A DNA stretch of 64,000 nucleotides. Origin: Bradyrhizobium sp. BR 10289 (lineage in GTDB: Bacteria; Pseudomonadota; Alphaproteobacteria; Rhizobiales; Xanthobacteraceae). The notes beneath the pieces were generated by a model, which searched no databases, had not been told where the DNA came from, and saw nothing but the letters and a program-made list of their open reading frames with translations. Positions within the stretch are counted from its first letter, which is position 1; each line of letters opens with the position of its first letter. Both the position numbers and the translations under genes were made by a program. Shown here in pieces: positions 1,661 through 41,411 of the stretch. The DNA lies in contig NZ_JACOFR010000001.1 of assembly GCF_019455385.1 (NCBI RefSeq), positions 186,001-250,000 on the forward strand. The letters are read 5' to 3'.

Positions 1661-4600
1661 TTACTCGGCGGCTTCCTTGACGGTGCCGTGCGCGGGCGTT
1701 TCGTGGCCTTCGTCGTCGTCCGAACGGCCCCATGCGGAGAACCAGTTGTTGAGCCTGTCGAGATAGAGATAGACGACGGGCGTCGTGAACAGCGTCAGCG
1801 CCTGGCTGACGATCAGGCCGCCGACCATGGCGTAGCCGAGCGGCTGGCGGATTTCGGATCCGGTGCCGTGGCCCAGCATCAGGGGTACGCCGCCGAGCAA
1901 TGCCGCCATCGTCGTCATCATGATGGGGCGGAAGCGCAGCAGCGCGGCCTGGCGGATCGATTGCTCCGGCGTCTTGTGTTGGTCGCGCTCCGCGGCGATC
2001 GCGAAGTCGACCATCATGATGCCGTTCTTCTTCACGATGCCGATCAGCAGGATGACGCCGATCAGCGCGATCAGGCTGAACTCGAAGCCGGCCGCCATCA
2101 GGATCGCGAGCGCGCCGACGCCGGCCGAGGGCAGTGTCGACAGGATCGTGATCGGATGGATGTAGCTCTCATAGAGGATGCCGAGGATCAGATAGACCAC
2201 GACGAGCGCGGCGAGAATCAGCAGCGGCACGGTGCCGAGCGACTGCTGGAACGCCTGCGCGGTGCCCTGGAAGCTCGAGTTCAGCGTCGGCGGCGCGCCG
2301 AGATCGGCCATCGCCTTCTGCACGGCCTCGGTGGCCTGGCCGAGCGCGACGCCTTGCGCGAGGTTGAAGCTGATCGTAATCGCCGGGAATTGGCCCTGAT
2401 GGCTGATCGAGAGCGGGCGGACCGGATCGGTGCTCCAGCTCGCGAAGGTCGACAGCGGCACCTGCTCGCCGGTCAGCGGCGATTTCACGTAGAGCTTGTT
2501 CAGGCTGTCGAGGTTGCCCTGCATCTCCGGCAGGATCTCGAGGATCACCTTGTAGGTGTTGAGCTGGGTGAAATACTGCGTCACCTGCCGCTGTCCGAAC
2601 GCGTCATACAGCGTGTCGTCGATCAGCTGCGGCTGGATGCCGTAGCGCGAGGCGGTGTCGCGGTTGATCTTGAGCTGGACCGTGGTGCCCTGGGTCTGCT
2701 GGTCGGTGGCGACGTCGCGCAGCTCCGGCAGCGTCGCCATCTTGGCCAGGATCTTCGGCGCCCAGTCGTTGAGCTCGGCGAGATCGGCGTCCTGCAGGGT
2801 GAATTCGAACTGCGTGCGCGTCGGCCGGCCGCCGAGTCGGACGTCCTGGGCCGCCTGCATGTAGAGGCGGGCGCCGGACACCTTCTCCAGCTTGGGACGC
2901 AGCCGCGCGATGATCTGCTGTGCGGAGGCCTCGCGCTCGTCGCGCGGCTTCAGCGTGATGAACATGTTGCCGTTGTTGCCGGCGCGGCCGCTGCCGCCGA
3001 TGTTCATTGCCACCGAAGCGACGTCCGGATCGTCCTGCACAATCTTGCCGAGCTCGACCTGGCGGCGCTGCATCTCCTTGAACGAAATGTCCTGGGAGGC
3101 TTCCGAGGTCGCGGTGATCAGGCCGACGTCCTGCTGCGGGAAGAAGCCCTTCGGGATCAGGATGAACAAATAGACTGAAAGGCCGAGCGTGACGAAGAAA
3201 ATCGTCAGCGTGGTGCGGCGCCAGGCCATCGCATGGTCGAGCACATATTCATAGCCGCGCAGCATGGCGTCGAAGGCGGCCTCGCTCCACTGGTAGAACC
3301 TGCCGTGGGTGACCTCGCCATGGGCGCGCAGGAAGCGAGAGGCCATCATCGGCGTCAGCGTCAGCGACACGAACATCGAGACGAAGATGGTCATCGCCAG
3401 CACGACCGCGAATTCGCGGAACAGGCGGCCGATGATGCCGCCCATCAAGAGCAGCGGGATCAGCACGGCGACCAGCGAGATCGAGATCGAGACGATGGTG
3501 AAGCCGATTTCCTTGGAGCCGCGAAAGGCCGCCGCCATCGGCGATTCGCCCTCCTCGATATAGCGCGTGATGTTCTCGAGCATCACGATGGCGTCGTCGA
3601 CGACGAAGCCGACCGCGATGGTGAGCGCCATCAGCGACAGATTGTCGAGCGAATAGCCCCAGACCCACATCAGCGCGCATGCGCCCAGCAGTGCCAGGGG
3701 AACCGTGATGGTGGGGATGACCGTCGCCCAGAAACTGCGCAGGAAGATGAAGATGACCATGACCACCAGGCCGATGGTCAGCAGCAGCGTGAACTGCACG
3801 TCCTCGACCGCGGCGCGGATCGTCGTGGTGCGGTCGCTGATCACCTCGATCTTGATCGCGGGCGGGATCGCCGCCACGAGGCGGGGCAGGGTCGCCTTGA
3901 TCCGGTCGACGGTCTCGATGACGTTGGCGCCCGGCTGCTTGAACACCACCAGGAACACGCCGCGCTTGCCGTTGGCCCAGGCTGCCTGCTTGGCATCCTC
4001 GGCGCCGCTGACGGCCTGGCCGATGTCGCGGATTCGCAACGGACCGCCGTTACGATAGGCGATGATGACGTCGTTCCAGTCCTTGGACTGGGTGAGCTGG
4101 TCGTTGGCGTAGATCGTATAGGCGCGCTTCTCGCCGTCGATATTGCCCTTGGGGCTGTCGACCGTGGTGATCGCGATCTGGCTGCGCACGTCCTCCATCG
4201 ACAGGCCCTTGGCGACGAGCTTCGCCGGGTCGATCTGGATGCGGATGGACGGCTTCTGCTGGCCGCCGATGAAGACCTGCGCGACGCCCGAGAGCTGGCT
4301 GATCTGCTGGGCAAGCTGGGCGTCGACCGCGTCGCTGACGCTGGTCAGCGGCAGCGTCTCCGAGGTTGCCGACAGCAGCAGGATCGGCGCGTCGGCCGGG
4401 TTCACCTTGCGATAGGTCGGCGGCGAGGGCAGGTTCTTCGGCAACTGGCCGCTGGCGGCGTTGATGGCGCCCTGCACGTCGTTGGCGGCGCCGTCGATGC
4501 TGCGGTTGAGGTCGAACTGGATGGTGATCGAGGCGGTGCCGAGATAACTCGTCGAGGTCATCTGGGCGATGCCGGGGATCTGGGCGAACTGGCGCTCCAG

Positions 4601-31828: not shown

Positions 31829-31915
31829 TTCGTCATTCGGGGGCGGTCAATGACCGAGCCTGGAACGGGTATTCTGGGCCTGGCGCTGTGCGAGACGCCA
31901 CCCCGGAATGACGAA
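31829..31915. repeat. Degenerate intergenic palindromic repeat, CGTCATTC family
   Basis: TTCGTCATT at 31829-31837 and AATGACGAA at 31907-31915 form a perfect 9 bp inverted pair. The inner part (CCCCGGAATGACG at the right end) matches the copy at 17055-17154, but the left arm has decayed. It may also end the transcript of the DUF35 gene. Confidence 0.7.
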
Positions 31916-32038: not shown

Positions 32039-32273
32039 GCCGTTTTCTCCCTAGACTTGGGCGTAGCTCATCGTTGCGCGGTTGAAGCGCAAAGACGGCC
32101 AATTGTTTTTACTCGGAACACCCCTTGCGAGTATTCACCCCGATGTGTCCCCACGCGGCGAATATCGACTGCGCCAAGGTCGTTCAGCATTGCGGCGGCA
32201 TTTTGACTCGATGTTGTTGCTGGTGAGGTCTTGCAGCACAGCGTGTGCGCGAACTTTATTCAACCGTCGCAAC

Positions 32274-33032
32274 TCATCGGATTTTTCGAGGAGAATTCTT
32301 GGGTAGCTTCGTTGCAGCCATCGATTTGGCCTTCGACGCCACCATCAGCGCGTCCCTGATATTGTTGAGATGACGCGTCATCGCGCTGCTCGCCTTGCGC
32401 GGGTTCCGCGCCTGCACGGCTGCGAAGATCGCTTCGTGATCCCTGAGCCACATCGGACGATAGTCCTCCATCCGCATGTGGTTGTGGATCTCCTGCCAGA
32501 TGCCGGACTCGGTTTGCGCGCGCCACAGCGAGTCGCAGATCGACACCAGCGCTCCGTTCCCGGTCGCCTCGGCCAGCACGACATGGAAACGGTGATCCGA
32601 CGTGTCGGCCTCGCGTCCCTGAGCATGCTCCCAGCGCATCATGGCGAGGGCTTCGGCGAGCTGCGCGAAAGTGGCCTCGGTGCCGCGTTGCGCCGCGATC
32701 GCCGCGATCTGCGGCTCGATCAGCTGGCGCGCCTCCAGATTTTCGAACGGGCCAAAGCCTTCGAGCTTGTGAACGTCAGGGGCTTCCTGACGGCTGATCA
32801 CGTAGACGCCGCTGTTGCTGCGCACCTTCAGCATGCCGGCCATCGCCAGCGACAGGATCGCCTCGCGCACGGTCGGCCGCGACACGCCAAACGTCTTGGC
32901 GAGATCGCGCTCGGCTGGCAGGCGCTGGCCGATGCGGTAACTCGCCTGGATCATCGCAGCAATGCGCCGAGCGACGATCTCGAAGCTGCGCTCGGGCTTG
33001 GATGGAGGGTCGTGCAACATCTTCGTGCTCAT
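32274..33032 (-). CDS. GntR/FadR-subfamily transcriptional regulator
   Basis: The 252-residue protein starts at ATG 33032 (MSTKMLHDPPSKPERSF); a TTG at 33056 would add eight residues. The winged helix at about 15-80 contains GQRLPAERDLAKTFGVSRPTVREAILSLAMAGML, and the C-terminal FCD-type all-helical domain contains HYRFH-like and histidine ligands (SDHRFHVVLAEATGN, RDHEAIFAAVQARN). FadR-type regulators sense acids and often bind TGGTNNNACCA. Two such sites lie in the divergent region, so it likely represses the transaminase-DMFase-like operon and perhaps itself. Confidence 0.92.
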   Translation of the reverse strand: MSTKMLHDPPSKPERSFEIVARRIAAMIQASYRIGQRLPAERDLAKTFGVSRPTVREAILSLAMAGMLKVRSNSGVYVISRQEAPDVHKLEGFGPFENLEARQLIEPQIAAIAAQRGTEATFAQLAEALAMMRWEHAQGREADTSDHRFHVVLAEATGNGALVSICDSLWRAQTESGIWQEIHNHMRMEDYRPMWLRDHEAIFAAVQARNPRKASSAMTRHLNNIRDALMVASKAKSMAATKLPKNSPRKIR

Positions 33033-33076
33033 CAGCTCTTTTTTTGAGTTTGACAAGCTGGTGCACGAAAGCCAAG

Positions 33077-33103
33077 CTGGTCAGACCAATTTGGACTGAC
33101 CAA
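33077..33103. promoter_or_regulatory. Tandem FadR/GntR-type operators
   Basis: Site 1, CTGGTCAGACCAA at 33077-33089, has perfect TGGT/ACCA arms with a 3 bp centre. Site 2, TTGGACTGACCAA at 33091-33103, has one mismatch to TTGGTNNNACCAA. Their centres are 14 bp apart. They lie between the FadR-type regulator and the transaminase gene, where they could control both directions. Confidence 0.65.
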
Positions 33104-33161
33104 TTTGGTCGCCCGGTGCCGTCACAAGAGCGCCGGGGGCAAGAAGACGGAGCGTCGACGC

Positions 33162-34553
33162 GTGTCCGACAGACGACTGAATTCCGCCGAGGCGCGCGAC
33201 ATCGCGTTCCATCTGCACTCGCAGACCAATCCTCGACGACATGCAGAAATCGGACCGCTGATCATGGCGCGCGGCGAGGGCGTCCATGTCTTTGATGCAG
33301 GCGGCAAGCGTTATCTGGAAGCGATGGCCGGCCTGTGGTGCACCTCGCTCGGCTTTTCCGAGACCCGGCTCAAGGCTGCGGCACTCGCTGCCTACGACAA
33401 ATTCGGCTTCTACCACAGCTTCAATCACAAGACGCCGGACAACACGATCGACCTCGCCGAGAAGCTGGTCGAGATCTCGCCGATCCCGGACGCGCAGGCC
33501 TATTTCGCAACGTCAGGTTCGGAAGCCACCGAGACCATGGTGAAGCTCGCCTGGGTCTATCACGCGGTCCACGGCAAGCCCGGCAAGCGCAAGATCATCG
33601 CCCGCGACCGCGGCTTCCATGGCTCGACCATCGTTGCCGCCTCGATGTGCGGTCTGCCCCGCATGCACCGCGAATTCGGCCTTCCGCTCGACGGTTTTCT
33701 GCACACGCATTGCCCGGACGCCTATCATGGCACGCGGCCCGGCGAGAGCGAGGCGGCGTTCGTCGCCCGTCTCGCGGCCGATCTCGAAGCCATGATCATC
33801 GCGGAGGGACCTGACACGATCGCCGCCTTCATCGCCGAGCCGATCAATGCCGGCGGCGGCATCGTCGTGCCGCCGAAGGGATATTTTGCTGCGATCGAGA
33901 CGGTGCTGCGCCGTCACGACATCCTGGTGCTCGGCGACGAAGTGGTCTGCGGCTTCGGCCGCACCGGCAACTGGTTCGGCTGCGAGACGGTCGGCATGAC
34001 GCCCGACATGGTCGCGCTCGCCAAGGGCATCACCTCGTCCTACTTCCCGATGTCGGCGGTGCTGCTCGGCCGGCCGATCCGCGACGCGCTCGCCGAGATG
34101 AACAAGGGCGGCGAGCTGTTCGGCCACGGTTTCACCAATTCCGGGCACCCGGTTGGTGCGGCCATCGCGCTCGAGACGCTCAAGATCTACCACGAGATGG
34201 ATGTGGTGCCGCATGTCCGCCGCATGGGCGGCAGGCTCCGCAACGGGCTCGCGCAGATCGCGAAGGATTCGCGCATCGTCGGCCAGGTCAGGGGCGAGGG
34301 GTTGATGATCGGCGTCGAGCTGGTCGCCGATCCCGCGACGCGGCAGGTCTTCGATCCCGCGCTCAAGGTCGGTGCGATGTTCGACGCGCGCGCGATCGAG
34401 AATGGCCTGATCATCCGCGCGATGGGCGACACGATCGGGTTCTGCCCGCCGCTGATCATCGACGAGGCCGGCGTCGACGAGGCGCTCGATCTGTTCGCGA
34501 AAACCCTGTCCAGCATCGAAGCCAGGCTTGCCGAGACACGTCCATCTGCGTAA
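33162..34553 (+). CDS. Class III aminotransferase (omega-transaminase type)
   Basis: From GTG 33162 (GGAG 9 bases upstream) the protein is 463 residues; an ATG at 33105 would add a basic N-terminus that overlaps the operator region. The PLP lysine is Lys288 (VALAKGITSSYFPMS) and the cofactor-ring aspartate is Asp259 (LVLGDEVVCGFGRTG). GSGSEATETMVKLA-like and FTNSGHPVGAAIALE motifs complete the fold. It transfers a terminal amino group, for example from a diamine, beta-alanine or taurine-like substrate, to pyruvate or another keto acid. It heads a rightward operon whose other members suggest amide or amine catabolism. Confidence 0.9.
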   Translation: MSDRRLNSAEARDIAFHLHSQTNPRRHAEIGPLIMARGEGVHVFDAGGKRYLEAMAGLWCTSLGFSETRLKAAALAAYDKFGFYHSFNHKTPDNTIDLAEKLVEISPIPDAQAYFATSGSEATETMVKLAWVYHAVHGKPGKRKIIARDRGFHGSTIVAASMCGLPRMHREFGLPLDGFLHTHCPDAYHGTRPGESEAAFVARLAADLEAMIIAEGPDTIAAFIAEPINAGGGIVVPPKGYFAAIETVLRRHDILVLGDEVVCGFGRTGNWFGCETVGMTPDMVALAKGITSSYFPMSAVLLGRPIRDALAEMNKGGELFGHGFTNSGHPVGAAIALETLKIYHEMDVVPHVRRMGGRLRNGLAQIAKDSRIVGQVRGEGLMIGVELVADPATRQVFDPALKVGAMFDARAIENGLIIRAMGDTIGFCPPLIIDEAGVDEALDLFAKTLSSIEARLAETRPSA

Positions 34554-34573
34554 CCCGTTGAGGAGAAAATAAC

Positions 34574-36178
34574 ATGCGCCGTCGAGACCTGCTCCGATCC
34601 ACACTGGGCGCCGGTCTCGGCGTCGCCTTGGGCTCCACGCTTGCGATGCCGCGCATTGCCCGTGCGCAAGGCTCGCGCACGCTGCGCTTCGTGCCGCAGG
34701 CCGATGCTGCGATCCTCGATCCCATGATCACCACAGGTCTCGTCAACCGCAACCACGGTTTCCTGATCTGGGACACGCTGTACGGCATCGACGAGAAATT
34801 CCAGGTCCAGCCACAGATGGTCGCCGGCCACACCGTCGAGAACGACGGCAAGCTCTGGACGATGACCTTGCGGGACGGCTTGAAATTCCACGATGGCGAG
34901 CCCGTGCGTGGGCGCGACGTGGTGGCGAGCCTGAAGCGCTGGGCCTCGCGCGATGCCTTCGGCAATTCGCTGTTTCTTCTGGTCGACGAGCTCTCGGCGC
35001 CTGACGACAAGACCGTGCGCTGGCGGCTCAAGGCGCCGTTTCCGATGTTGCCTGAATCGCTCGGCAAGGTCGGCGCCATCATCGCCTTCATCATGCCGGA
35101 GCGTCTGGCGCAAACCGACAGCGTCACGCCGGTCAAGGAACTGATCGGCTCCGGTCCGTTCAAATTCCAGGCCGATCAGCACGTGCCCGGCGCGCGTCTG
35201 GTCTACACGCGTTTCGATGGCTATGTGCCGCGCCCCGAGGGCACGCCGAGCCTGCTCGCGGGGCCCAAGGTCGCTTATTTCGACCGGGTCGAGTGGCAGG
35301 TTCTGCCCGATCCCGCGACGGCGGCGGCGGCGCTTCAGCAGGGCGAGATCGACTGGTGGGATCAGCCCATCGTCGACCTCTTGCCGAAGCTGAAGGCGAA
35401 CAAGGCGCTCAATGTCGAGTTGCTCGATCCCATCGGCAATGTCGGCGTGCTGCGCTTCAACCACACGCAGCCGCCGTTCGACAACCCGGCCATCCGCCGC
35501 GCCGTGCTCTCCGCCGTCAGCCAGAAGGAATTCATGTCGGCGATCGCGGGCGACGACACCAGCCTCTGGCGTGACAAGATCGGCTTCTTCGCGCCCGGCG
35601 GCAACATGGCCAACGATGCCGGCATGGAAGCGCTGACCGGTCCCCGCGACATCGCCGCCGCGGCCAAGGCCATCAACGACGCCGGCTACAAGGGCGAGAA
35701 GGTGCTGCTGATGGCGCCGGGCGATTTCCCCGTGATCGGGCAGATGAGCGAGGTCACCGCCGATCTGTTCCGCAAGCTCGGCTTCAACCTCGACTACGTC
35801 ATGATGGACTGGGGCTCGATGCTGCGGCGCATGGGCAATCGCGAGACGCCGGACAAGGGCGGCTACAGCGCCTTCTGCACTTATTCCGCGGGCGTGACGC
35901 AGCTCAACCCGTCGGCGCATAATTTCATCCGCGGCAGCGGTGACAAGGCGACCTTCGGCTGGGCCAGAAGCGAGAAGCTGGAGCAGCTGCGCGATGCCTG
36001 GTTCGCCGCGCCCGATGCCGCCGCGCAGGCCAGGATCGGCATCGAGATGCAGAAGCAGTGTTTTATCGACGTTCCCTATGTGCCGCTTGGTGTCTTCTAT
36101 CAGCCGACCGCGTACAAGAAGACCCTGACGGGCATGCTCAAGGGCCTGCCATTGTTCTGGAACGTGCGCAGCGCCTGA
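34574..36178 (+). CDS. Family 5 ABC transporter substrate-binding protein (Tat-exported), without adjacent permeases
   Basis: The 534-residue periplasmic binding protein of the DppA/OppA fold has a twin-arginine leader (RRRDLLRSTLGAGLGVALGS, cleavage near ARAQ) and the typical lobe motifs (DGLKFHDGEPVRGRDVVASLKRW, NHTQPPFDNPAIRRAVLSAV). It binds peptides, amines or similar solutes in the periplasm. No permease or ATPase gene is next to it, so it must use membrane components from elsewhere or serve as a receptor. It sits 20 bp after the transaminase and 13 bp before the DMFase-like gene. Confidence 0.92.
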   Translation: MRRRDLLRSTLGAGLGVALGSTLAMPRIARAQGSRTLRFVPQADAAILDPMITTGLVNRNHGFLIWDTLYGIDEKFQVQPQMVAGHTVENDGKLWTMTLRDGLKFHDGEPVRGRDVVASLKRWASRDAFGNSLFLLVDELSAPDDKTVRWRLKAPFPMLPESLGKVGAIIAFIMPERLAQTDSVTPVKELIGSGPFKFQADQHVPGARLVYTRFDGYVPRPEGTPSLLAGPKVAYFDRVEWQVLPDPATAAAALQQGEIDWWDQPIVDLLPKLKANKALNVELLDPIGNVGVLRFNHTQPPFDNPAIRRAVLSAVSQKEFMSAIAGDDTSLWRDKIGFFAPGGNMANDAGMEALTGPRDIAAAAKAINDAGYKGEKVLLMAPGDFPVIGQMSEVTADLFRKLGFNLDYVMMDWGSMLRRMGNRETPDKGGYSAFCTYSAGVTQLNPSAHNFIRGSGDKATFGWARSEKLEQLRDAWFAAPDAAAQARIGIEMQKQCFIDVPYVPLGVFYQPTAYKKTLTGMLKGLPLFWNVRSA

Positions 36179-36191
36179 AAGGGGATTTTCG

Positions 36192-38420
36192 ATGCTTCCA
36201 ATCACCGGCTATGCGGATCGCTGGAGCGTGCGCCCCGGCGACGACATCAACTTCATGATCGCGGTCAAGGGCGGCGGTCGCTATTCGGCGCGTATAGCCC
36301 GCGTCATCTGCGGCGACCCGAACCCTGGAGGGCCCGGCTATCGCGAGATACCCATGAAGTGGGATCTCGAAGGTCAGCACGACGGCATCGAGCAGGTCAT
36401 CGCCAAGGGCTCGTGGGTCGACGTGCCCAAGCTGGCATTGCCAACGGGTCCGATTGCCTTCGCTGCGACCGTCTGGCCGACCTTGCTCGCCGCCGGCAAG
36501 CAGGCCGTGCTGAATTTTGCCGGCGCCGGCGGTGCGCTGACGCTCGGCGTCGGCGCGACGGGCGCCTTCGCCCGGCTCGTGACCGGCGAGGGCAGCGTCG
36601 AGGTCGAGACCGGCATCGCGCTCACCGAGCGTGCCTGGCACGATGTCGCCTGCCTGTTCGACCCCGCGGCGGGATCGCTGACGATCGCGCAGGCGCCGCG
36701 CAAGAGCAGGCTCGACCGCGACGAGCGTGCGACGAAATCGCTAAGCGCGCCGAAGGCTGCCTTGGCCGGCACGGGGCCGGTCGCGATTGCGGCGGAGCGC
36801 GCAGGGAAGGGCGTGGCCGATCGCTTCAACGGCAAGATCGAGCGGCCGCGCATCACCGATGGCGGTGCTGGCCTCGACGGCATCATCACCGCGCAAGCCT
36901 CCGGCGCGGCGGCGCCCGCCATCGCCGAATGGGATTTCTCGATCGGCATTCCCTCGGACGTCGCGACCGACATCGGCCCCTCCAGCGCGCACGGCACCTG
37001 CATCAATCTGCCGACGCGCGCGATGACGGGCTCGCGCTGGACCGGCGGCGTGACGCATCGCTGGACCGAAGAGCCAGAACTCTGGGGCGCGATCCATTTC
37101 CACGACGACGATATTGGCGACTCCGGCTGGCAGCCATCGCTGAGCTTCACCGTGCCTGACGACTGGACAAGCGGCGTCTACGCGCTGCATCTCGACAAGG
37201 ATGGCGCGCGCGACAACATCGTCTTCTACGTCCGCGCCAAAGTGCCGGGATCGCAGGCCAAGGTGGCGTTCCTCGCGCCGACCTTCAGCTACACGGTCTA
37301 CAGCCAGTATCAGAAGAAGGGCCGGCAGGCCCTGATCACGGAGCGCTCGCTGGCCTGGGGTGCGCTGGCGCAGGCGCCCGACGGTCATCCCGAATACGGC
37401 GTCTCGCCCTATAATTTCCATTCGGACGGCAGCGGCGTGGTGATGTCGACCATGCGCCGGCCGCTGATCGACAAGCGGGTCAACCAGATCCACCTCGTCG
37501 ATCCCAGCGATTACGGCTCGGGCCTCTACTGGATCTCCGCCGACAGCGCCATCACCGATCTCCTGACCCGCAAGGGCATCGACTTCGAGGTCATCACCGA
37601 TCACGATGTCCATGCCGAGGGTGTCGACCTGCTGTCGAAATATTCCGTGGTCCTGACCGGCCAGCACCCGGAATATCACACGCACGAGACGCTCGATGCG
37701 CTCGGGGCCTATATCGGCAATGGCGGCCGCTTCATGTATCTCGGCGGCAACGGCTTCTACTGGAAGGTGGTGCCGCATGCGACGGGTACCTGGGCGTTCG
37801 AGCTGCGGCGCGCCGAGGGCGGCATTCGTCTCTGGGAAACGCTGCCCGGCGAGAGCTATCACGCCTTCGACGGCTCCTATGGCGGCCTGTGGCGACGGCT
37901 CGGCCGCCCGCCGCAGGCGCTGGTCGGCGTCGGCTTCTCGACGCAAGGAGAATATATGGGTTTCCCCTATACGTTCCTCGATGGCGTTCTCGATCCCCGC
38001 GTCGCCTTCATGCGCGAGGGCATCGAGGATCTGGCGCGGCCCGGCGCAAAGCTCGGCGAGCGCGGCTTCATGGGCGGCGGCGCCGCCGGCCATGAACTGG
38101 ACCGCGCCGACGTCCGCCTCGGCACGCCGCATCACGCCATCATCATCGGCCGCGCCGTCCTCACCGATCCGACCTATCAGCCCGTCAACGAGGAACGTTA
38201 CGACCACACCTGGCCGGCCCCGCGCGAGGACATCATCCGCTCCGACCTGACCTTTTTCGAGACACCGAACGGCGGCGCGGTGTTTTCGGTCGGTTCGATG
38301 AATTTCATCGGAGCGCTGCCGGTCGACGGCTACAACAATGTCGCAGCCCTGCTGATCACCAACATCGTCAAGCGCTTCGCCAATCCGGCGCCATTCCCGG
38401 CGCCAAAGGCCTCTCCGTAA
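36192..38420 (+). CDS. N,N-dimethylformamidase large-subunit-like protein
   Basis: The 742-residue protein matches the length and layout of the dimethylformamidase (DMFase) large subunit: an N-terminal beta domain with a LamG-like insertion (about 85-240, GPIAFAATVWPTLLA, WHDVACLFDPAAGSLTIAQ) and a C-terminal catalytic domain. His492-x-Glu494 (TGQHPEYHT), with tyrosines near 370-373 and 401-407, resembles the mononuclear iron site of two tyrosines and a glutamate that I recall from Paracoccus DMFase. That enzyme also has a small subunit of about 130 residues, and no such gene is seen here. It probably hydrolyses an amide or related C-N bond; the natural substrate is unknown. Confidence 0.85.
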   Translation: MLPITGYADRWSVRPGDDINFMIAVKGGGRYSARIARVICGDPNPGGPGYREIPMKWDLEGQHDGIEQVIAKGSWVDVPKLALPTGPIAFAATVWPTLLAAGKQAVLNFAGAGGALTLGVGATGAFARLVTGEGSVEVETGIALTERAWHDVACLFDPAAGSLTIAQAPRKSRLDRDERATKSLSAPKAALAGTGPVAIAAERAGKGVADRFNGKIERPRITDGGAGLDGIITAQASGAAAPAIAEWDFSIGIPSDVATDIGPSSAHGTCINLPTRAMTGSRWTGGVTHRWTEEPELWGAIHFHDDDIGDSGWQPSLSFTVPDDWTSGVYALHLDKDGARDNIVFYVRAKVPGSQAKVAFLAPTFSYTVYSQYQKKGRQALITERSLAWGALAQAPDGHPEYGVSPYNFHSDGSGVVMSTMRRPLIDKRVNQIHLVDPSDYGSGLYWISADSAITDLLTRKGIDFEVITDHDVHAEGVDLLSKYSVVLTGQHPEYHTHETLDALGAYIGNGGRFMYLGGNGFYWKVVPHATGTWAFELRRAEGGIRLWETLPGESYHAFDGSYGGLWRRLGRPPQALVGVGFSTQGEYMGFPYTFLDGVLDPRVAFMREGIEDLARPGAKLGERGFMGGGAAGHELDRADVRLGTPHHAIIIGRAVLTDPTYQPVNEERYDHTWPAPREDIIRSDLTFFETPNGGAVFSVGSMNFIGALPVDGYNNVAALLITNIVKRFANPAPFPAPKASP

Positions 38421-38467
38421 GGAGACGAGCCGCGAGGATGTTGCTCTTGTGCCGGTGCGAGAATACT

Positions 38468-38503
38468 CTTGGGAACTGTTCAAAAACGAGAACAAGACCC
38501 AAG
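38468..38503 (+). promoter_or_regulatory. Hairpin overlapping the ribosome site of the CMD-family gene
   Basis: CTTGGG at 38468-38473 pairs with CCCAAG at 38498-38503, with an inner GTTC/GAAC pair. The right arm covers part of the AAGGTG ribosome site for the ATG at 38511. This could tune translation of the next gene or be a remnant processing site. Confidence 0.3.
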
Positions 38504-38510
38504 GTGACTG

Positions 38511-39038
38511 ATGGCCCGCATCCTCTACAGCGACCCGATCAACGCGTCCGATCGCACCCGCGAAATCCTCGACAAGAACCGCAACGCCAACATCTTCCGC
38601 ATGATGGCGCATTCGCCGAGCTATTTTGAGCAATATTGCCGCCTGGGCGGTGCGATCAGGCACAAGGGCGAGCTCGATCCTGTTGTCCGCGAGCTCGCAA
38701 TCACCCGCACCGGCATCCTGTGCGAGGCGCCCTACGAGATCGTCGCGCACAAGCGCATCGGCAAGAATGTCGGCGTCACCGACGAGCAGAACGAGGCGCT
38801 CGAGAACTGGCAAGGCGCGAGCTGCTTCAACGAAGTGCAGCGCGCTGCGCTCGCCTTCACCGACGAGATCGTGAAGCTGAACAAGCCGACCGATGCGACC
38901 TTCAAGGCGATTGCCTCGAAGCTGACGCCGGCCGCTTTGGTCGAGCTGCAGCTTTCGGTCGGATTTTACATCATGACGTCAAAATTCCTGGAGACATTCG
39001 AGATCGATCTCCAGCCCGTCACGGAAGTGGTGGGCTGA
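38511..39038 (+). CDS. Carboxymuconolactone decarboxylase/AhpD-family protein
   Basis: The 175-residue all-helical protein has the family motif in VRELAITRTGILCEAPYEIVAHKRIGKN, with a single Cys rather than the AhpD CxxC pair, so a peroxidase-reductase role is unlikely. The second half (LTPAALVELQLSVGFYIMTSKFLETF) is also typical. Members of this group (often annotated as CMD-like) hydrolyse or isomerise small compounds or have unknown roles. It follows the DMFase-like gene after 90 bp with a hairpin between. Confidence 0.85.
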   Translation: MARILYSDPINASDRTREILDKNRNANIFRMMAHSPSYFEQYCRLGGAIRHKGELDPVVRELAITRTGILCEAPYEIVAHKRIGKNVGVTDEQNEALENWQGASCFNEVQRAALAFTDEIVKLNKPTDATFKAIASKLTPAALVELQLSVGFYIMTSKFLETFEIDLQPVTEVVG

Positions 39039-39060: not shown

Positions 39061-39369
39061 ATGCCGATGACGATCGATGAATATGCGGCCTGGGCCGCCA
39101 CCATCGCCAAGGTCGATGAGCACCCCTCGAACGAGCGGCTGTCCTATCTCGGGCTGGGCCTCGCCGGGGAAGCCGGCGAGGTCGCCGAGCACATAAAGAA
39201 GCTGCTCCGCGACGACTGGCTCGACAAGGCGGGTCTCGTCGAAGAGCTCGGCGATGTCATTTATTACTGGGCCTGCCTGTGCGCCGCGACCGGCCAGCAG
39301 CCGTCCGAACTGCTCGCGGCCAGTGCCGCCAAGATCAAGCGTCGGATCAGTGAGGCTGCGAGCCGCTAG
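39061..39369 (+). CDS. MazG-like nucleotide pyrophosphohydrolase
   Basis: The 102-residue all-alpha NTP pyrophosphohydrolase carries the metal-binding pairs Glu37-x-x-Glu40 (LAGEAGEVAEHIKK) and Glu62-x-x-Asp65 (VEELGDVIYYW). These single-domain MazG-type proteins hydrolyse non-canonical or excess NTPs to NMP and pyrophosphate. The start may be ATG 39061 or ATG 39067. It is 22 bp after the CMD gene; its presence at the operon end may be housekeeping rather than pathway-related. Confidence 0.88.
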   Translation: MPMTIDEYAAWAATIAKVDEHPSNERLSYLGLGLAGEAGEVAEHIKKLLRDDWLDKAGLVEELGDVIYYWACLCAATGQQPSELLAASAAKIKRRISEAASR

Positions 39370-39545: not shown

Positions 39546-41390
39546 TCATGTCGAGGTCAAAATATCGACCTTCGCATTTGCGACGATCAGACGATCCGCC
39601 AGCAACAGCGCCAGGTTGCGCATGATGCGCTCAGAGGCGCGCGGGTGCTGCTGGCGGAAACGCTCGAAATCCTTCAGGGGGACCTCGAAGGCGGTCGCGG
39701 CCATGTCCGCAAACACATCGGCAGAGCGGGTCGGCTCGAGCAGCGCCATTTCGCCAAAGGCCATGCCGGCGGTGAGGGTTGCCAGCCGCACGCCGTCGGG
39801 CAGGGTGACGTGCACGGCGCCGCTGCGCAGGAAGAACAGGGAATCTGCGGGCTCGCCGGTGGTGATGATCTTCGCGCCGGACTGATAGGTCCTGACGGTG
39901 CTGATCGCACCGAGCTCGGCGACTTCGTCCGCACTGAGGCCTTCCAGCAGCGGCTGCTCGGCAAGCTCGGTGGTCTCGTGGAAGTCGATCGAGCCGCCAT
40001 AGCGGTAGACGATCTGGTCCTCGGCCCATTCGATCGCGGTGTCGAGCAGATAGAAGTCGCGGACGTTCTTCAGCTCGGCGGTCCATTCCCGCAGCGTATT
40101 CCATTCCTTCGAGGCCCGCCGGACGCCCGACAGCACGACGGTGATGTTGAGCTGCGCCAGCTCTTCGAACGCCTCGGCGGCGAGCCGGGCGCCGGCGCGC
40201 GTCGTGGAGGTGACGCGATGGAGGTCGAAGATCACGAATTGCGGCCGCGTCCGGCCCGCCAGCCGCCGCGAGACGTAGTCGACCGCCGACAGCGACAGCG
40301 TTCCGACCAGCTCAATGATCCGCACCTCCTGCTCGTGTGCGGCGAGGATCTCGCGCTCCTGCGGCCGGCGGACGCGGCGGGACGGGCTCTTGCCGATGTC
40401 GTAGTCGGCGATCACGGCGTTGCGGGCGTCGTCGCTGCGGTTGAGCATGTGCAGATCGTAATGCGACGACAGCGCCTCGCACACCTTGATGCCGCGCACG
40501 CTGTTGCCGTGTTTGTCGAGCTTTGGCGAATAGCTGCCGAGCCCGAGCCGGGCCGGGAGCGCCGCCAGAATGCCGCCGCCGACGCCGCTCTTGGCGGGAA
40601 TGCCGATCCGGTAGATCCACTCGCCGGCATAGTCGTACATGCCCGACGACGTCATCACCGACAGCGTGCGCGATATCGCGTAAGGCGTCAGCACCTGCTC
40701 GCCCGTGACCGGATTGACGCCGCGATTGGCGAGCGTTGCCGCCATCACCGCGATGTCGCGCGCGGTCACGAGCACCGCGCATTGCCGGAAATAGACGTCG
40801 AGCACGCCGGCGACATTGTCGGAGATCACGGCATTGGTCTTGAGCAGATAGCCGATGGCGCGGTTGCGGTCACCGGTCTGGCTTTCGGAGGTGTAGACCG
40901 CCTCATCCAAGGCGAGGTCGCGTCCGGCAAAGCGGCTGAGCGCCAGGCGAATCTGCTCGAACGCCTCCGGACCCTTGCTGTCGTAGATCAGCCCGGTGCA
41001 GGCGATCGCGCCGGCATTGACCATCGGGTTGAACGGATGGTTCTCGGCATTGAGCCGGATCGAATTGAAGGGATCGCCGGAGGGTTCGACGCCGATCGCA
41101 CTCTCGACCTTGCTTGCGCCGAGCAGGTCGAGCGCGAGCGCAAACACGAACGGCTTCGACATCGACTGGATCGTGAAGGGCACCCTGCTGTCGCCGACCT
41201 CATAGACATGGCCGTCCAGCGTCGCGAGGCTGATGCCAAAATAGGCAGGGTCGGCCTTGCTCAGCTCCGGGATGTAGTCGGCGACATGGCCTGATGTCTC
41301 GGCCGAGAATTCGTTGAGGCAGGCGTTCAGAAACCGCAGCAAGGGCGGTTTCGAGCGGATCCAGGCGGAAGCGGGCGGCGATTGGGTCAT
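39546..41390 (-). CDS. glsA: Glutaminase fused to STAS and cyclic-nucleotide-binding domains
   Basis: The protein is 614 residues from ATG 41390. The serine-dependent glutaminase domain spans about 15-325, with the catalytic Ser76-x-x-Lys79 (TIQSMSKPFVFAL) and the NPMVNAGAI and RNRAIGYLLK motifs. A STAS domain follows at about 350-455 (VRIIELVGTLSLSAVDYV, FVIFDLHRVTSTTRAGARL). The C-terminus (about 475-600) is a cNMP-binding domain with the phosphate cassette FGEMALLEPTRSADV. It hydrolyses glutamine to glutamate and ammonia; the added domains imply control by a nucleotide signal or a partner. It starts 21 bp after the TRAP permease gene. Confidence 0.93.
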   Translation of the reverse strand: MTQSPPASAWIRSKPPLLRFLNACLNEFSAETSGHVADYIPELSKADPAYFGISLATLDGHVYEVGDSRVPFTIQSMSKPFVFALALDLLGASKVESAIGVEPSGDPFNSIRLNAENHPFNPMVNAGAIACTGLIYDSKGPEAFEQIRLALSRFAGRDLALDEAVYTSESQTGDRNRAIGYLLKTNAVISDNVAGVLDVYFRQCAVLVTARDIAVMAATLANRGVNPVTGEQVLTPYAISRTLSVMTSSGMYDYAGEWIYRIGIPAKSGVGGGILAALPARLGLGSYSPKLDKHGNSVRGIKVCEALSSHYDLHMLNRSDDARNAVIADYDIGKSPSRRVRRPQEREILAAHEQEVRIIELVGTLSLSAVDYVSRRLAGRTRPQFVIFDLHRVTSTTRAGARLAAEAFEELAQLNITVVLSGVRRASKEWNTLREWTAELKNVRDFYLLDTAIEWAEDQIVYRYGGSIDFHETTELAEQPLLEGLSADEVAELGAISTVRTYQSGAKIITTGEPADSLFFLRSGAVHVTLPDGVRLATLTAGMAFGEMALLEPTRSADVFADMAATAFEVPLKDFERFRQQHPRASERIMRNLALLLADRLIVANAKVDILTST

Positions 41391-41411
41391 CGCCTCCCTT
41401 GTGCAACGCAA

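Follow-up and report, generated by a model that had tools for sequence, protein, structure and literature searches.

A single-chain dimethylformamidase-like amidase in a recurrent four-gene cassette of Bradyrhizobium sp. BR 10289

Introduction

The N,N-dimethylformamidase (DMFase) of Paracoccus (PDB 6lvb; Pfam PF20254) is described in PMC7686228 as an α2β2 enzyme whose large subunit alone is inactive. The same paper gives Y399, Y440 and E521 as the iron ligands, and reports that mutants of H519, N547 and E657 are inactive. Of the solved members of the family, the N-acetyl-(R)-β-phenylalanine acylase (8huy, 8i59, 8i5a) is the closest to the protein studied here. A precedent for a change of substrate within the family is the acetamiprid amidase AceAB of Pigmentiphaga, which is likened by description only to the DMFase of P. 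aminophilus and is stated to be specific for another substrate (PMC11573777); AceAB has two subunits, whereas the amidase considered here is a single chain. Outside the family, the closest parallel in pathway logic is the degradation of caprolactam by Pseudomonas jessenii, in which, according to PMC6061476, an ATP-dependent, oxoprolinase-type caprolactamase opens the amide and the transaminase PjAT (6g4b) converts 6-aminohexanoate with pyruvate.

We have analysed a window of 64,000 nucleotides from the soil bacterium Bradyrhizobium sp. BR 10289 (the whole stretch of DNA under study), in which a DMFase-like open reading frame (ORF) lies downstream of a transaminase gene and a gene for a periplasmic binding protein. 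The amidase is a member of a known enzyme family, not a new kind of enzyme. It has the three-domain fold, the iron ligands and the catalytic residues of DMFase in common with that enzyme, but it is found without a small subunit in the genome searched; with the acylase it shares the same six catalytic positions, the same clade and the lack of any small-subunit chain found in the PDB entries, while falling into a subclade of its own. As in P. jessenii, whose transaminase is among the closest solved ones and belongs to a known pathway, the logic would run from amide to amine to oxo compound, with the difference that an iron amidase is proposed to open the amide in place of the ATP-dependent caprolactamase. 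The coordinates of all features are collected in Table 1.

Table 1. Features of the cassette and its downstream flank, in window coordinates.
Feature	Coordinates	Strand	Basis
Cassette-specific segment, absent at the same site in most genus members	32222..38510	.	Empty-site alignment
Probable local regulator of the GntR/FCD type, transcribed divergently from the transaminase	32274..33056	-	PF00392 + PF07729
Putative tandem operator: TGGTCAGACCA palindrome, then TTGGACTGACCAA	33077..33106	.	Intergenic alignment
Class-III omega-transaminase	33162..34553	+	PF00202; NCBIfam PRK06105, 691 bits vs cut-off 517
Family-5 periplasmic solute-binding protein	34574..36178	+	PF00496; 8vdx, 518 bits
Single-chain DMFase-superfamily amidase	36192..38420	+	Profile, residues, tree, AlphaFold2 model
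Y370 codon, equivalent to DMFase Y399 (iron ligand)	37299..37301	+	Alignment
Y407 codon, equivalent to DMFase Y440 (iron ligand)	37410..37412	+	Alignment
H492-P-E494 codons, equivalent to DMFase H519 (catalytic) and E521 (iron ligand)	37665..37673	+	Alignment
N520 codon, equivalent to DMFase N547, proposed oxyanion contact	37749..37751	+	Alignment
E635 codon, equivalent to DMFase E657, proposed base	38094..38096	+	Alignment
CMD-family protein, flanking core gene, outside the cassette	38511..39038	+	In 59/60 genus genomes

Results and Discussion

Family, active site and fold of the amidase

The amidase ORF is complete from its ATG to its stop codon and encodes 742 aa. The initial annotation had recognized a DMFase-like large subunit here, and this identification holds: the match to PF20254 (DMFA2_C) scores 267 bits against a cut-off of 27, and the alignment with the DMFase large subunit spans almost the whole chain, covering residues 3-739 (E 7e-105). 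Pfam also places a Laminin_G_3 domain at residues 73-222, the NCBIfam scan of the protein returned no match, and public records label such proteins as 'N,N-dimethylformamidase beta subunit family'. The best solved match is the acylase, with an E-value of 6e-140 and 37.7% identity to 8huy, as compared with 31.1% identity to DMFase.

All six positions of the DMFase site, that is the set of two Tyr and one Glu that hold the iron and the active-site His, Asn and Glu, are present in the alignment. The His492-x-Glu494 motif pointed out by the initial annotation is correctly placed, falling on H519 and E521 of DMFase; the 'nearby tyrosines', which were left unnamed there, can now be identified as Y370 and Y407, and the loss of Tyr or Glu ligands on alignment, which had been named as the outcome that would speak against the assignment, was not seen. 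In an alignment of 108 rows (the window, two PDB chains and 105 rows of fetched loci, among them near-copies), the residues equivalent to Y399, Y440 and H519 are each kept in 107 rows, E521 in 108, and N547 and E657 in 104 each. The exceptions are one locus that deviates at three sites (L107), one that deviates at two (L098), and four rows with Asp for Asn; two fragment rows stop short of the Glu position equivalent to E657.

Structure prediction agrees with this picture. An AlphaFold2 model built from 40 family members has a pLDDT of 92.7 and a pTM of 0.92, and compared through this model the amidase superimposes on 8huy with Z 52.1 (710 residues, rmsd 2.2) and on DMFase 6lvb with Z 47.7 (713 residues, rmsd 2.3); the acylase entries were also top-ranked by Foldseek. 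The presence of the Ig-like, pentraxin-like and ThuA-like domains of the DMFase superfamily is supported by the model alignment, together with the Laminin_G_3 match. From residues and fold we infer that the protein binds iron and hydrolyses an amide.

Some deviations from the family pattern were recorded in other loci. Two DMFase-like copies from tandem pairs, L098 and L107 (genomes G049 and G018), lack some of the active-site residues: in L107 the changes fall at the positions of DMFase Y399, H519 and E657, and in L098 at those of Y440 and E657. It is possible, judging from these substitutions, that they are inactive partner chains. On plasmid pAMI5 of P. aminophilus, the DMFase-like large subunit at L002:4004-6430 (small subunit at 3505-3945) has Asp at the position of DMFase Asn547, as do L091, L092 and L093; because Asp replaces Asn547, the substrate of the L002 enzyme may not be DMF.

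The small subunit and the family tree

A profile of the DMFase small subunit was derived from the small subunits of three loci; it recognized the domain in 25 ORFs of the fetched loci, some of which represent one place twice. With a 14-row profile, the genome of BR 10289 (G000) gave 0 matches at E ≤ 10, and within the window the best match reached only E 0.61. As a control, the same profile found small subunits that were not part of it in all three of the genomes in which this was tried (G018, G049 and G096, E ≤ 7e-24). In G022, which also carries the cassette, the only match had an E-value of 0.67. Against the PDB the profile picked out DMFase (six entries, E 8.8e-14), all other matches having E ≥ 0.45, and no chain of 8huy, 8i59 or 8i5a was matched. 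As the initial annotation had it, no small subunit was found, and the idea that one is encoded elsewhere in the genome was rejected on the lack of profile matches combined with working controls. A replacement domain within the large chain was also considered and rejected: the chain has 742 aa as compared with 775, and an extra domain is absent from the model.

In a tree of 106 rows, the window and 8huy fall together in a clade of 80 rows with SH-aLRT support of 100, and a small-subunit gene was detected in none of the rows of this clade. The other 78 rows are loci; the 5' flank reaches 1 kb or more in 73 of them, and flank of this length is present on both sides in 67. For the same-genus loci from the genome survey the flank is only about 1.5 kb, and a very divergent small subunit could escape. 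All 21 rows with a small subunit lie outside the clade, together with five more rows without a hit (L094, L100, L101, L108, L111), so that absence is not confined to the 80-row clade. The distribution of small-subunit rows needs three changes on the tree, where several branches are weak (supports 30, 79 and 14) and the only firm one is the clade without small subunits. Inside that clade the window belongs to its own subclade of 30 rows, which excludes 8huy and has a support of 100; the 8huy branch is long. L016 and L020 (fragments shorter than 680 aa), L095 and L105 (frame broken), L001 (a copy of the window) and L102, L109, L110 and L112 (no long match) were omitted from the trees, and L010 and L086 are identical sequences.

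Since the window and 8huy share a clade without a detected small-subunit gene, the missing subunit is, on the evidence of these sequences, a trait of the clade that is already represented by a solved enzyme. The initial annotation had treated it as something special to this locus and had overlooked the acylase, the closest solved relative, with which the trait is shared. In many relatives no small-subunit gene is seen and the protein groups with the acylase branch, and this is true of the majority of the relatives that were sampled for their similarity to the window. That an enzyme of this kind can be active as an amidase without the small subunit rests on the 8huy relative, because the large subunit of DMFase is inactive alone (PMC7686228).

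These data also bear on whether the protein could be a true DMF- or formamide-degrading enzyme with its small subunit encoded elsewhere. The protein has the fold of DMFase and all of its iron-site residues, which would suit such an enzyme. But no small subunit was found in the genome despite a working control, the amidase is placed in a clade without small subunits, and its sequence and fold both resemble the acylase more closely than DMFase; we consider this explanation extremely unlikely.

A different arrangement of the small-subunit domain was encountered in some of the related loci, where it forms the C-terminal ~100 residues of an ABC permease of the LivH/M type (BPD_transp_2) adjoining the large-subunit gene. 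This fusion was seen in 7/7 such ORFs scanned with Pfam (L007:6278-7933, L096, L097, L103, L104, L106 and L107), most of them cut by the end of the locus, that of L007 being one annotated CDS. The sequences suggest a membrane-tethered amidase that might be fed its substrate straight from the importer.

A conserved unit of four genes

The conserved unit consists of four genes: a divergent GntR gene and, on the other strand, the genes of the omega-transaminase, the periplasmic binding protein and the amidase. The start listed for the transaminase ORF is a TTG at 33105, which falls inside the operator described below, and the GTG of Table 1 is therefore the likelier start. Its closest solved relatives are 5ghf and the P. 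jessenii enzyme (6g4b/6tb1; 477 bits for 6g4b). R438 aligns with R417 of PjAT, which we take to be the carboxylate-binding Arg of class-III transaminases. The leader of the binding protein is twin-arginine-like, as judged by eye. No permease or ATPase gene adjoins the binding-protein gene, and neither an aldehyde dehydrogenase nor an ABC permease was found within the cassette; with the permeases of a Variovorax locus as queries there was no match in the window, and ATPase matches occurred only near 0.3, 20.4 and 54.6 kb.

Of the clade's 78 other loci, 15 carry a transaminase gene and 19 a binding-protein gene upstream on the strand of the amidase, and in these 19 the binding-protein match ends 12-29 bp before the amidase match. 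The linked loci come from Bradyrhizobium, Pseudoroseomonas, Roseomonas, Acidisphaera and a Hyphomicrobiales MAG; they include a plasmid of Roseomonas marmotae, whose transaminase is of another type, and three loci of Acetobacteraceae/Roseomonadaceae with the binding protein only (L029, L036, L037). The partial loci L016 and L020 carry the same cassette genes. Near the amidases of the Belnapia/Paeniroseomonas relatives (62-63% identical) there is no transaminase match. Across the family as a whole, a class-III transaminase is found within 3 kb on the same strand in 6 of 26 clusters, where the search covered 130 kb of strand, and in 4 of 26 it occurs only elsewhere, in 463 kb (3.6 times more sequence); the counts are the same when the window transaminase is the sole query. 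The enrichment is rough, since the clusters are few and a single locus supplied the strand length of each, and it is to be read as support for the linkage, not as proof. The transaminases near family amidases include different types.

Elsewhere in the 80-row clade the neighbours are very varied (TauD, luciferase-like, molybdopterin, enoyl-CoA hydratase, carboxyl transferase and amidohydrolase proteins). Many of the neighbour ORFs in these G+C-rich loci are antisense, and they were used only to choose proteins for Pfam, where 4 of the 10 scanned had no match. A plasmid search with the binding protein yielded 142 records.

The first reading of the locus had thus named two partners correctly, the upstream transaminase and the binding protein; the third, the CMD-family protein, is a core gene next to which the cassette is inserted. 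It had also called the context new. We found no description of the cassette in the literature searched, which covered open-licence PMC papers, and in this sense the claim stands; as a genomic arrangement, the context recurs in many genomes.

The putative operator

In 13 fetched loci a GntR homologue with at least 60% identity occupies the same place, and two adjacent dyads can be recognized in 13 aligned GntR-transaminase intergenic regions, that of the window included. A strict pattern for the two dyads is present in 11 of the 13 fetched loci with the GntR gene, L014 and L017 missing it through changes in the first dyad; elsewhere among 130 loci it occurs only at the window's own place. A looser pattern gives four matches in the window (two dyads on both strands) as compared with 0.03 expected, and genome-wide four of its five matches are at the cassette. 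A genome-wide search with the operator for the missing permeases or dehydrogenases led outside the locus only to the fifth match, a weak one on contig 29. GntR proteins of the FadR type bind TGGN5CCA-like sites. These conserved tandem operator-like repeats suggest that the cassette is separately regulated by its GntR protein.

The insertion site

A thiolase gene upstream of the cassette is present in 56 of the 60 genus genomes, and thiolase and CMD genes lie on one contig and strand in 55. In 52 of these genomes the distance from one gene to the other does not exceed 1.3 kb; one genome has 3.1 kb, two have 7.0 kb, and the median of all 55 is 868 bp. The distance of 7.0 kb is found only in G000 and G022, the two cassette carriers. 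In 10 loci with an empty site, the alignment to the window ends at 32221 (nine loci) or 32230 (one) and in all of them resumes at 38511, and since the empty sites break and resume at these junctions, the cassette fills the whole of the intervening segment. Eight named Bradyrhizobium cassette loci have the thiolase upstream, and seven, all but the truncated L016, have the CMD gene downstream; in strain LTSP849 (L013) the cassette has neither flank.

The G+C content and the third-position G+C of the cassette differ little from those of the flanks. The only repeats that could mark the insertion are short and imperfect, and there is no tRNA gene in the window. On the basis of the insertion pattern, and of the 71-74% identity of the amidase to relatives in Acetobacteraceae and Roseomonadaceae, it appears that the cassette has been transferred between lineages.

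The patchy occurrence of the amidase (among 59 other same-genus genomes, any relative is found in 9 and an orthologue in 1) is what might be expected if it were non-catalytic or a neutral passenger of the genome. Against this, the catalytic residues are conserved across genera, as are the order and spacing of the genes and the operator, and we regard a passenger role as very unlikely.

Two flanking genes were examined as possible partners and rejected. The CMD gene belongs to the core of the genus, the cassette having been inserted before it, and a MazG-like gene (39061-39369) accompanies CMD in Bradyrhizobium loci only; both are neighbours by position only. Two further features of the flanks can be recorded. 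An inverted repeat at 31829-31915, with arms of 18 nt that are 51 nt apart, has the look of a REP-type or other small mobile element: at this site L116 has 88 additional bases, L119 has 99 additional bases, and L123 has about 100 fewer. On the other side, a single ORF at 39546-41411 combines a glutaminase, a STAS domain and a cyclic-nucleotide-binding domain.

Candidate substrates and proposed route

Because the neighbours of its relatives differ widely, the substrate of the amidase is not readable from the family alone, and for the same reason a shared clade does not give a shared substrate. The amidase probably removes the acyl group of an acylated amine, and the neighbouring transaminase then uses the amine so released; in the simplest reading an N-acyl amino acid of the beta or omega type, or an N-acyl amine, would be imported, deacylated and then transaminated. 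It had been suggested at the outset that the enzyme acts on a different amide or on a cyclic imide: the first part is upheld to the extent that the substrate is probably other than DMF, while nothing was found in support of a cyclic imide.

The similarity of the transaminase to the 6-aminohexanoate transaminase of the caprolactam pathway raises the question of a lactam route, in which the amidase would open a cyclic amide, for instance one resembling caprolactam or valerolactam, to give an omega-amino acid from which the transaminase would produce the semialdehyde, as an ATP-independent counterpart of the caprolactam pathway. In DMFase the pocket is narrowed by the aromatic F693 (PMC7686228). 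This aromatic is not kept in the alignment, where a gappy region gives D for the window and S for 8huy, and its loss counts in favour of the lactam route. However, the traceable characterized substrates of the family are open-chain (DMF, N-alkylformamides, acetamiprid and, from the name of 8huy, N-acetyl-(R)-beta-phenylalanine), ring opening by any traceable member was not found, the equally close transaminase 5ghf has no lactam link in these results, and the cassette is without a semialdehyde dehydrogenase, unlike the P. jessenii cluster as described in PMC6061476. We therefore judge this route improbable.

A lipid-like substrate was also weighed. On a plasmid of Variovorax paradoxus VAI-C, an aminotransferase close to the aminopentol aminotransferase 6hbs (L006:5666-6964, 598 bits) is located beside a two-subunit DMFase-like amidase, and adjoins a related binding protein and genes for an ABC permease and ATPase. 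By analogy, the amidase of the cassette could deacylate an N-acyl amino alcohol or fatty-acyl amine, with the transaminase acting on the amino alcohol. But L006 lies outside the clade of the window and has a small subunit, and its transaminase is of another type, with 24% identity to that of the window, so that this alternative too appears unlikely.

The reading that we favour, with somewhat more confidence than doubt, is that the amidase is a cytoplasmic, single-chain, mononuclear-iron enzyme at the core of an inducible catabolic cassette for N-acyl amines or amino acids that has spread between genomes. The binding protein would capture an N-acylated amine or amino acid, of the beta- or omega-amino acid type, and hand it to an ABC importer encoded elsewhere. 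Within the amidase, Fe(III) would be held by Y370, Y407 and E494, while E635 would help to activate water, H492 would be needed for activity, and N520 would be placed at the oxyanion; the exocyclic amide would be split into a small carboxylate and the free amine. The omega-transaminase would then move the amino group to pyruvate, the remaining aldehyde or keto acid would enter central metabolism, and the GntR protein would repress transcription in both directions from the tandem operator until an inducer arrives.

Conclusions

A broader and distinctly more tentative proposal is that an ATP-independent iron amidase has here replaced other amide-opening enzymes upstream of an omega-transaminase, in a horizontally spread cassette for a natural amide, either a lactam or an N-acyl beta- or omega-amino acid from plants or soil microbes. 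If true, this would represent an undescribed route from amide to amine to oxo acid with its own importer protein and regulator. With one regulator, one binding protein, one amidase and one transaminase, the cassette provides a clean handle on the role of one branch of the family, and it would show how the strained iron site of two Tyr and one Glu works without the small subunit that DMFase needs.
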